A stretch of DNA of 64,000 nt from Gemmobacter lutimaris (lineage in GTDB: Bacteria; Pseudomonadota; Alphaproteobacteria; Rhodobacterales; Rhodobacteraceae), in the NCBI RefSeq assembly GCF_003570715.1, contig NZ_QXXQ01000012.1, forward strand, positions 1-64,000, given 5' to 3'. Numbering within the stretch: position 1 is the first letter of the stretch; each line of letters begins with the position of its first letter. The translations under genes were made by a program, and so were the position numbers. The notes under the pieces are model-generated. The model had not been told where the DNA came from, did not search any database, and saw nothing but the letters and a program-made list of their open reading frames with translations. Shown piece after piece: positions 28,876 through 41,621 of this stretch.

Positions 28876-29036
28876 GCGGACCTCCTGTCTTGCGGGCAGA
28901 GCCTTGTTCACGTTACGTCAAAGTGCAAGGCCCGTTTACCATTTGCTCAAAAAACTGGCGATGCGCTTGGAAATGATCAAGATTTTCCTCGCGTCAGCCA
29001 TGCGGAAGCCGCATAGCTGCAATGCGGCGAAACAGG

Positions 29037-29066
29037 ATTGTGCACATGCAGCATTTGCCCCATTTT
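29037..29066 (+). promoter_or_regulatory. Predicted RpoH-type (heat/oxidative stress) promoter
   Basis: CCCCATTTT at 29058-29066 matches the -10 element of RpoH promoters (CCCCATnT). A TTG-containing element, ATTGTGC, lies at 29037-29043 with 14 bases between. It is 77 bases upstream of the DUF1127 start. In R. sphaeroides the matching DUF1127-CcsR unit is driven by RpoHI/RpoHII, to my knowledge. Confidence 0.6.
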
Positions 29067-29142: not shown

Positions 29143-29358
29143 ATGGCTTATGTAAACACCACCCGCGTCGCGCATATCAGCGTTGCCGACCGTATCATGG
29201 GTCTGGTGGACGGCATCCGCAAGATGCAGGCCCGCCGGGCGATCTACCGGCAGACCCTGCGTGAACTGAATGCGCTGAGCACCCGCGAACTGGCGGATCT
29301 GGGCATCCATCGCTCGATGATCACCCGTCTGGCGCAAGAAGCGGCCTACGGCAAATAA
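29143..29358 (+). CDS. DUF1127 small protein, CcaF1-like
   Basis: A 71-residue basic protein. The C-terminal half, LRELNALSTRELADLGIHRS then MITRLAQEAAYGK, is the DUF1127 (YjiS-like) domain, an arginine-rich helical RNA-binding module. The ATG at 29143 has GAGG about ten bases upstream; an earlier in-frame ATG at 29128 lacks a site. Twenty bases after its stop the CcsR-like hairpins start. From memory, in R. sphaeroides RSP_6037/CcaF1 heads the CcsR1-4 transcript and affects their maturation. Stress-dependent expression is inferred from the promoter. Confidence 0.9.
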   Translation: MAYVNTTRVAHISVADRIMGLVDGIRKMQARRAIYRQTLRELNALSTRELADLGIHRSMITRLAQEAAYGK

Positions 29359-29364
29359 GTATCT

Positions 29365-29440
29365 TTGCCGGGTTCCACCTCCTCCCGGAACCCGATGCAA
29401 AAGCGGCGACATCGCTCCTCCTCCCTAGATGTCGCCGCCC
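29365..29440 (+). ncRNA. CcsR-like sRNA, unit 1
   Basis: Two hairpins. Stem CGGGTTCC/GGAACCCG (29369-29394) is perfect. Stem GCGGCGACATC/GATGTCGCCGC (29403-29438) is a perfect 11-bp stem. Both loops carry CCTCCTCCC. It follows the DUF1127 stop directly, so release needs processing from the mRNA. Exact ends are estimated. Confidence 0.8.
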
Positions 29441-29465
29441 TTCTATAACGGAAACCCCGGTTTCC

Positions 29466-29545
29466 AGAGTTTGCGCGGCCCCTCCTCCTCCCTGGGCCTG
29501 TCGCAAAAGCGGCGATCCCCTCCTCCTCCCTGGGATTGCCGCAAG
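29466..29545 (+). ncRNA. CcsR-like sRNA, unit 2
   Basis: Hairpin TTTGCG-c-GGCCC with GGGCC-tgt-CGCAAA (29470-29507) has a small internal loop. Hairpin GCGGCGATCCC/GGGATTGCCGC (29509-29542) has one G-U pair. Both loops carry CCTCCTCCC, and the first has an extra CCT. A spacer hairpin GGAAACC/GGTTTCC separates it from unit 1. Confidence 0.78.
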
Positions 29546-29567
29546 CCATACGGGCCTTACCTGCCCG

Positions 29568-29650
29568 GAACGGTTCCCTGGCCCCTCCTCCTCCCTAGGC
29601 CGTGGGATCGGCGACAGCCCCCTCCTCCTCCCTGGGGTTGTCGCAATCCA
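29568..29650 (+). ncRNA. CcsR-like sRNA, unit 3
   Basis: The first hairpin is the weakest of the ten, with GGCC/GGCC closing the CCTCCTCCC loop and an imperfect outer stem (about 29572-29610). The second is GCGACAGCCCC/GGGGTTGTCGC (29611-29644) with one G-U pair. The spacer hairpin CGGGC/GCCCG precedes it. Confidence 0.72.
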
Positions 29651-29671
29651 TTCGGGTCGTATGACCCAACA

Positions 29672-29745
29672 GGTTCATGGCCCCTCCTCCTCCCTGGGCC
29701 ATGGAAAACGCGGCGCCCCCTCCTCCTCCCTGGGGTGTCGCACCG
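29672..29745 (+). ncRNA. CcsR-like sRNA, unit 4
   Basis: Hairpin CATGGCCC/GGGCCATG (29676-29703) extends by two more pairs. Hairpin GCGGCGCCCC/GGGGTGTCGC (29710-29741) has two G-U pairs. Both loops carry CCTCCTCCC. The spacer hairpin GGGTC/GACCC lies upstream, but no spacer hairpin separates it from unit 5. Confidence 0.75.
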
Positions 29746-29835
29746 AAACAGCCGCCCCTCCTCCTCCCTGGGCGGATGTTGAAAATGGACGGCGGCACCC
29801 CTCCTCCTCCCTGGGTGTCGCCGTTTCCATTTTGG
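29746..29835 (+). ncRNA. CcsR-like sRNA, unit 5
   Basis: Hairpin AACAGCCGCCC/GGGCGGATGTT (29748-29780) has one mismatch. The last hairpin is the longest: ACGGCGGCACCC/GGGTGTCGCCGT, extended by AAAATGG/CCATTTT (29782-29833). That strong stem probably protects or ends the transcript. Both loops carry CCTCCTCCC. Confidence 0.75.
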
Positions 29836-37658: not shown

Positions 37659-37733
37659 GCGGGCGTAGCTCAGGGGTAGAGCATAACCTTGCCAAGGTTA
37701 GGGTCGTGAGTTCGAATCTCATCGCCCGCTCCA
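37659..37733 (+). tRNA. tRNA-Gly (anticodon GCC), copy 1
   Basis: A 75-nt cloverleaf, CCA encoded: acceptor GCGGGCG/CGCCCGC with discriminator T, anticodon loop TTGCCAA giving GCC. Identical to the copy 19 bases downstream. Confidence 0.97.
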
Positions 37734-37752: not shown

Positions 37753-37827
37753 GCGGGCGTAGCTCAGGGGTAGAGCATAACCTTGCCAAGGTTAGGGTCG
37801 TGAGTTCGAATCTCATCGCCCGCTCCA
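37753..37827 (+). tRNA. tRNA-Gly (anticodon GCC), copy 2
   Basis: Base-for-base identical to copy 1 over all 75 nt, and the pair shares one promoter and one terminator. The CGC before the tRNA is repeated too, which suggests a recent tandem duplication or gene conversion. Confidence 0.97.
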
Positions 37828-41089: not shown

Positions 41090-41473
41090 TCATTTCACGC
41101 GCTTCCAGTCCTGCGACTTGCACAGAAGCCCGCCCGCCACGCACCCGGCCAGCTTCATCGCATTGCCCGAGACGTTCATCTTGCCCGAATAGACCTTGTT
41201 GTTCGACGGCCGCCAGACCTGGCCCTCGTATTTGCCGCCACCGACCGGCACCATGTCGATGACGATCTTCTTGCCGATATTCTCGGATTTGTATTCGGCG
41301 CCATCCTTGAAGGTCCGGCTGATCTTGCCGCAGAAGGCGCTGCCGCAAGGCGCGATGGTAACATGGGCATAGGCCCCGTCATCCACCTGCGTCTGCCACA
41401 CCCCTTCCACCGGATCGGCAGATGCCGCACCGGCCAGCCCGACAAGGGCCGCCGCCAAAAGATAAGTCCGCAT
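41090..41473 (-). CDS. DUF2147 family periplasmic protein
   Basis: A 127-residue protein with a signal peptide ([20 protein letters not shown]). The mature part [19 protein letters not shown]... with two cysteine pairs ([19 protein letters not shown]) matches DUF2147, small secreted beta-barrel proteins. ATG 41473 has GGAGGA upstream. In Rhodobacterales it is often found next to hisA. Function unknown. Confidence 0.88.
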
Positions 41474-41621
41474 GGGTTCCTCCTCCCCTTCGATCCCGCG
41501 ATCATCGGCCCGGCACCACGATTCCCGCAAGCGTGACGCTACGGCCCCCGCTTCGCCCTTGCCGTCACGTCGCCCGCATGCCAAACCGCGCGCGACCCGC
41601 ATCCCGCATACGGAGCCCGCC

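Follow-up and report, generated by a model that had tools for sequence, protein, structure and literature searches.

Analysis of the 64-kb stretch of DNA (the window) revealed a CIN1 or "cuckoo" locus of the ccaF1-CcsR type, which by its sequence is a known kind of stress-type small RNA (sRNA) locus. It consists of a 71-amino-acid DUF1127 gene followed by ten hairpins with the same loop. We consider it likely that the locus works as a ccaF1-CcsR operon, in which a stress transcript would be cut into sRNAs whose loops silence selected mRNAs with G-rich Shine-Dalgarno sequences.

The CcaF1-type gene (29143..29355, + strand) encodes a protein that matches PF06568 with 47.1 bits (cut-off, 23.3) and whose closest named relative is that of Gemmobacter caeni (97% identical). 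An Mrp-type P-loop ATPase gene (PF10609) on the opposite strand and a downstream benE-type transporter gene are the neighbors. An exact-word search identified ten copies of the 9-mer CCTCCTCCC 3' of the DUF1127 gene on the + strand (29378-29811), starting at positions 29378, 29417, 29484, 29522, 29587, 29624, 29686, 29722, 29760, and 29803. The first loop starts 23 nt past the last sense codon of the gene. On both strands of the window, the 9-mer occurs 12 times, compared to a mean of 0.84 and a largest value of 4 in 100 shuffles; the two remaining copies are solitary (41479, + strand; 57333, - strand). Open reading frames also exist over the repeats.

In the minimum-energy fold of the array, every one of the ten 9-mers formed the unpaired loop of a hairpin of its own, as the preliminary description had proposed. 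The ensemble unpaired probability was 0.999 to 1.0 for each 9-mer versus 0.424 for the whole presumed transcript. The loops are spaced by 39, 67, 38, 65, 37, 62, 36, 38, and 43 nt, an arrangement of three spaced pairs followed by a compact four-hairpin run (29674-29833). The previously noted alternation of about 38 and about 65 nt thus applies to the first three pairs, but the last four hairpins (36, 38, and 43) depart from it. All predicted elements lie on the + strand. Hairpin 1 (A type, 29364..29401) and hairpin 2 (B type with a GCGGCG stem, 29403..29438) lie within unit 1 (29359..29443). Unit 2 (hairpins 3 and 4) spans 29469..29547, unit 3 (hairpins 5 and 6) 29573..29649, and unit 5 (hairpins 9 and 10) 29745..29829. 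Small spacer hairpins were folded between hairpins 2 and 3 (29450..29465), 4 and 5 (29551..29567), and 6 and 7 (29654..29667) and none between hairpins 8 and 9, that is, at three of the four pair borders, as had been described.

Searching the own genome with the CcsR1 covariance model (RF02791) revealed five matches, all at the array. Unit 1 scored 73.2 bits, above the cut-off of 65.3 bits. The other four of the five units remained below it, with 53.9 bits for unit 2, 39 bits for unit 3, 41.2 bits for unit 4 (29672-29746), and 38 bits for unit 5, though each had an E value of at most 1.8e-7. This search scored 150 of the 3796 first-look candidates, and one of the 14 control genomes gave a match, below the cut-off. 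Among these 150 candidates, no further match to the model was found elsewhere in the own genome. A search for a second array by the close-spaced pattern was likewise negative in the own genome, all six matches falling in the present locus. A dispersed mobile repeat is likewise unsupported, since the pattern and, among the candidates scored, the model match the own genome only here. Hairpins 7 to 9 (29668..29784), which include unit 4, form an ar14-like triplet (RF02344; 69.5 bits; cut-off, 58.8 bits), and the counterpart in G. caeni scored 68.3 bits. Since ar14 passes its cut-off across hairpins 7 to 9, splitting hairpins 7 to 10 into two pairs is, on sequence grounds, not the sole parse; a triplet of hairpins 7 to 9 also fits. 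A 6C RNA match at the array end (29.9 bits; cut-off, 47) was taken as chance. The assignment to a CcsR/cuckoo locus behind a CcaF1-type gene, made in the preliminary description, is thus borne out by the two Rfam families, the DUF1127 domain, the G. caeni relative, and the covariance search that had been suggested there.

The locus shares with ccaF1-CcsR1-4 of Rhodobacter (Cereibacter) sphaeroides the 71-amino-acid DUF1127 gene and, behind it, two-hairpin units in tandem that carry CCUCCUCCC loops, and a terminator has been reported at the end of that array (PMC10253847). It differs in having ten loops rather than eight, the latter number following from four CcsRs with two stem loops each. The hairpin pairs with CCUCCUCCC loops that characterize CcsR/CIN1 loci are represented in the predicted fold by the three spaced pairs and the run of four, and the DUF1127 gene lies directly upstream on the same strand. 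This association of array and DUF1127 gene has been named CIN1 (PMC10253847). The present array departs from the CcsR1 family in its compact last four hairpins, in the fit of hairpins 7 to 9 to ar14, and in the low scores of units 2 to 5. The ar14 RNA NfeR1 of Sinorhizobium (RF02344) also has three hairpins with identical CCUCCUCCC loops on unlike stems, as in hairpins 7 to 9; in contrast to the hairpins behind ccaF1, which are part of a ten-loop array, it is a three-loop sRNA whose own promoter is activated by LsrB and repressed by NtrC. The cuckoo motif of Reinkensmeier and Giegerich (2015; cited in PMC10253847 and PMC4504443) likewise has a fixed loop, free stems, and often a short DUF1127 gene. 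It was described with 2 to 4 hairpins per motif (cited in PMC4504443), whereas ten are present here and up to 26 elsewhere.

The fixed loop and the drifting stems that still pair, by which cuckoo RNAs are recognized, were found in the present array and its relatives. An alignment of unit 1 comprised the window and 41 of 80 named loci, namely, those with the usual spacing of the first two loops; it has 42 rows, 40 of them distinct, and rows from close relatives are not independent of one another. At its 16 pairs, 97.8% of the cells were paired, and changes on both sides were observed at 11 of the 16 pairs, with 88 double-change cells. None of 500 shuffles matched the paired share, the double changes, or the covariation score, and 3 of 500 matched the number of pair types. 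In slid controls of the alignment, the paired share decreased to 35 to 55%. In hairpin 2, double changes were present at 8 of 11 stem pairs across relatives. The arms of 798 hairpins from the window and the fetched loci formed a mean of 10.2 pairs with their own partner versus 5.9 when swapped. That the stems differ and yet pair through compensating changes, as described earlier, is confirmed in relatives by the unit-1 covariation and the arm-swapping comparison. The preliminary description had named stems without covariation as evidence against it; the covariation in unit 1 (0 of 500 shuffles) is the opposite.

Comparison with Gemmobacter aquatilis revealed substitutions at 0 of 90 loop bases, 70 of 286 paired bases (24%), and 49 of 119 other bases (41%). 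The corresponding values for G. caeni were 0 of 90 plus one deletion, 17 of 286, and 19 of 119. The deletion affects hairpin 4 of G. caeni (L144), the loop of which is one base short (eight letters); the other nine loops are intact. Loop substitutions amounted to 3 of 90 against Gemmobacter caeruleus and 6 of 90 against Gemmobacter serpentinus. In arrays of at least four loops, 781 hairpin loops are exact and 27 carry one mismatch, 21 of these at position 1 only. Because the loops hardly change and the stems drift yet pair, the sequence data indicate that selection keeps the loop as sequence and the stem as structure. The stem base GCGGCG/CGCCGC is better kept in the second hairpins of pairs (e.g., 29403-29438) than in the first, which suggests, at the sequence level, that this GCGGCG-like base has a role beyond pairing. 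A neutral tandem repeat or terminator pile-up behind the gene, without function in trans, would account for the duplication of units in tandem (period 102 in the window, 140 in the largest array). It is contradicted by the frozen loops, namely, the 0 of 90 loop changes against 24% in stems and 41% at other bases in G. aquatilis, and by the predominance of exact loops and the compensatory stem changes, and we regard it as extremely improbable.

The hairpin count in related genomes, a check proposed in the preliminary description, was determined for 80 named ccaF1-type loci. These are the best tblastn matches to CcaF1 and hence near relatives, some of them cut at contig ends, with two contigs each from Cereibacter johrii and Paracoccus acridae. 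The count relies on the exact 9-mer and misses hairpins with an altered loop. Ten loops per array was the commonest number (19 of 80); more than ten were present in 13 of 80 and nine or fewer in 48 of 80. Eight loops were counted in Cereibacter ovatus (L147), C. johrii (L150), and Luteovulum azotoformans (L149) and twelve in Cereibacter changlensis (L152). Among Gemmobacter loci, exact loops numbered 7 in G. megaterium, 8 in G. caeruleus, 9 in G. caeni, 9 in G. serpentinus, and 10 in G. aquatilis, the last at nearly the spacing of the window. The layout is thus common to G. aquatilis and, bar one lost loop base, to G. caeni, and the array therefore does not represent a recent expansion in this strain; a strain-specific expansion was rejected on the same layout and on ten being the commonest count. 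The five units of the preliminary description do score as CcsR1-like, but the array is not specially expanded, given the modal count of ten and a maximum of 26. The excess of two loops holds against C. ovatus, C. johrii, and L. azotoformans but not against C. changlensis.

The largest array, with 26 exact CCTCCTCCC hairpin loops, was found at L096 (G165:C1:333500-337000) among 100 fetched loci, a biased set picked partly for long arrays; the locus sets overlap in genomes. L096 has a tandem period of 140 bp (6.5 copies, 97% matches) and mostly three-hairpin units, L037 has a period of 114 (5.4 copies, 95% matches), and the window array has a period of 102 (2.7 copies, 80% matches). Judged from these repeats, long arrays grow through tandem copying. 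Compact arrays without pair spacing were also present (L099 and L103). A pattern scan, which is blind to loops one base off, detected close loop pairs in 216 of 295 family genomes, each from a different genus, and in 12 of 285 genomes of the class outside the family, the latter with at most three matches per genome, some of which may be chance. CcaF1-type relatives in HTCC2083 (L190) and Planktotalea (L203) have no exact CCTCCTCCC within 3 kb; either a changed loop or loss of the array may explain this.

Linkage to DUF1127 was determined with a profile built from an alignment of CcaF1 relatives. The loop pattern alone fetched 30 loci. A DUF1127 match lay within 1000 nt upstream of the array in 26 of these and in 21 of the 23 with at least three loops; no match was found within this distance at L013, L022, L024, and L026. 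Eight more loci were fetched by array coordinates, five of them with a DUF1127 match and three (L082, L111, and L114) without. The six-loop array of L114 (G112:C9) and the eight-loop array of L082 (G092:C27) lack DUF1127 upstream, and the DUF1127 match of the genome is on another contig. An earlier count, which gave a DUF1127-like word within 900 nt at 151 of 158 arrays of at least four loops, was set aside because most of those loci had been fetched via a DUF1127 match and because its pattern missed some.

This linkage bears on another explanation, according to which the array acts chiefly by multivalent binding and titration of CcaF1 or some other RNA-binding protein, with length setting the capacity. 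CsrB titrates CsrA, and CsrB and CsrC are multi-hairpin RNAs with a fixed loop motif; the C-rich loops of the multicopy sRNAs LhrC1-5 of Listeria act on Shine-Dalgarno sites. Both groups are functional or architectural analogues only, and no sequence relation is claimed. A fixed loop on free stems has the look of a protein-binding hairpin array, and the 21 of 23 linked arrays, the free hairpin number (up to 26), and the compact arrays fit such a binder, as does the report that CcaF1 is an RNA-binding protein with an effect on CcsR maturation (PMC10253847). Against it, some arrays have no DUF1127 gene nearby, and seed mutation of NfeR1 showed that the function of the loop is mRNA silencing, the available part of that report mentioning no DUF1127 partner (PMC10746234). 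Titration of a protein as the main role appears unlikely.

A generic promoter scan and a generic terminator scan of the locus found neither element. A presumed RpoH-type promoter (TTGTGCA, 13 nt, CCCCAT; 29038..29063, + strand) closes a conserved block upstream of the gene. In ten aligned upstream regions, TTGTGCA was present in all ten and CCCCAT in six, and the motif TTGTGCANNTGCAGCA has one zero-mismatch occurrence in the own genome. We take TTGTGCA-N13-CCCCAT to resemble the RpoH (sigma-32) promoter consensus. For ccaF1 of R. sphaeroides, an RpoHI/RpoHII promoter has been reported (PMC10253847). The TGC/GCA-rich block upstream of ccaF1 (about 28997-29063) is kept from Gemmobacter to Cereibacter in the ten regions, beyond a simple promoter. 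A link of this block to a known regulator such as the polyhydroxybutyrate (PHB) regulator PhaR was considered and dropped; the own genome has one exact site and three sites with a single mismatch.

Hairpin 10, which carries the tenth loop (29782..29834, + strand), folds with a stem extended by A-U pairs and a 3' arm rich in U and is a probable intrinsic terminator. In arrays of at least four loops (158 loci out of overlapping sets), T-rich sequence was present downstream of 57% of 155 last hairpins and 6% of 1242 inner ones, and the stems of last hairpins were longer (12.6 versus 9.8 pairs). Because of these two features, the last loop of arrays probably often sits on the terminator itself, and hairpin 10 of the present array probably also serves as a terminator.

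The loop was then compared with the 16S rRNA tail for pairing with ribosome-binding sites. At four GGGAGGAGG sites, the 12-nt loop duplex had -21.3 to -22.9 kcal/mol versus -16.3 to -17.4 kcal/mol for the 16S tail. At the canonical site AAGGAGGU, for which a single canonical string was computed, the loop had -10.5 kcal/mol versus -17.3 kcal/mol for the tail. These modeled energies point to a loop that selects G-rich ribosome-binding sites instead of serving as a general anti-Shine-Dalgarno sequence. It has also to be considered that the loops, by masking the ribosome-binding sites of most mRNAs or by competing with 16S rRNA, could damp translation under stress. CCUCCU is common to the loop and the 16S tail (GGATCACCTCCTTTC, once in the own genome), and each presumed transcript offers ten loops. 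The CCC end of the loop, however, departs from the ideal anti-Shine-Dalgarno sequence, and the loop wins at the four GGGAGGAGG sites but loses to the tail at the canonical one; this selectivity argues against a general ribosome decoy, which we judge very unlikely. From the preliminary description, pairing of the loop with Shine-Dalgarno sites therefore remains plausible in view of NfeR1 (PMC10746234), while the energies speak against an effect on all mRNAs or on the ribosome.

Searching the own genome for GGGAGGAGG located 3 to 11 nt before ATG gave 11 matches versus 1 for the reversed pattern. Two of the 11 lie inside the array, five precede no convincing gene, and four precede clear genes, which encode a DUF2147 protein, a DsbD/CcdA-like membrane protein, PaaN (TIGR02288, 761 bits), and a periplasmic binding protein beside paaN. 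The last two are adjacent in L142 (own genome C34:6374-9000), both with GGGAGGAGG before the start codon. The Shine-Dalgarno sequence of the DUF2147 gene (41093-41473, - strand), a candidate target outside the locus, is GGGAGGAGG at 41479..41487 (- strand). It is the exact complement of the array loop, and the solitary CCTCCTCCC at 41479 is its other strand. The gene lies about 12 kb from ccaF1, and a gap of about 11 to 15 kb was also observed in G003, G005, and G006.

At the DUF2147 start, the loop had the advantage in all seven scored genomes including the own (1.9 to 7.5 kcal/mol); seven of 19 loci (own plus six others) were scorable, the pattern not placing the start in the other 12. The site is kept or nearly so in the six scored relatives. 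At the paaN start, the loop was favored in all six genomes that have the gene, clearly in four (6 to 7 kcal/mol, with an exact or near-exact site) and weakly in two (about 3 kcal/mol). The DsbD-like comparison gave 14 matches, of which three loci were taken on, one of these without a marker. DUF2147 and paaN are candidate targets by modeled pairing and serve as leads only, as Shine-Dalgarno sequences are conserved anyway and the scoring included no control genes.

In the favored reading, an RpoH-type stress promoter would give a single transcript of the DUF1127 RNA-binding protein and the ten hairpins, which hairpin 10 would end. The 3' part would be cut with CcaF1 and RNase E into two-hairpin, or perhaps three-hairpin, small RNAs. 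Each CCUCCUCCC loop would pair with a G-rich Shine-Dalgarno sequence (GGGAGGAGG) and block translation of selected mRNAs, and the same loop on unlike stems would provide redundant seeds and dosage. Of this reading, the present analysis shows the array, its predicted folds, the unit-1 covariation, the loop constancy, the gene linkage, and the Rfam membership of unit 1 and hairpins 7 to 9. The origin of CcsR1-4 from the ccaF1 3' untranslated region with RNase E (PMC8625941), their destabilization by PNPase (PMC7866481), and their targeting of flhR (PMC8307010) have been reported. The three CCUCCUCCC loops of NfeR1 are redundant seeds; through them, ntrB is silenced at its start region, and the triple mutant no longer silences (PMC10746234). 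By analogy with NfeR1, we infer silencing by the loops of the present array; its promoter, terminator, processing, and targets are predicted.

A bolder view would treat the Rhodobacteraceae cuckoo locus not as a set of fixed separate sRNAs but as a fast-changing array of 1 to 26 frozen loops. Its length would tune the multivalent stoichiometric titration of CcaF1 and/or defined GGGAGGAGG mRNAs (e.g., those of DUF2147 and paaN), and it would lengthen as units of two or three hairpins are copied in tandem. We hold this view to be speculative and rather doubtful.

These results extend a known stress-RNA system to Gemmobacter. In the sampled relatives, the loop is near-constant while stems drift and copy number varies. 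A literature search, with key CcsR/cuckoo papers outside its reach, found no description of the 26-loop span, the frequent terminator-borne last loop, or the selectivity for G-rich sites; no priority is claimed. Whether the number of identical seeds sets the strength of regulation is now a testable question, arrays of 1 to 26 loops being natural dosage variants, and the suggested selectivity for G-rich sites narrows the candidate targets to a short list. Elsewhere in the window, two adjacent tRNA genes (37659-37730 and 37753-37824) have an equal Rfam score of 68.7 bits and are possibly a tandem duplicate.
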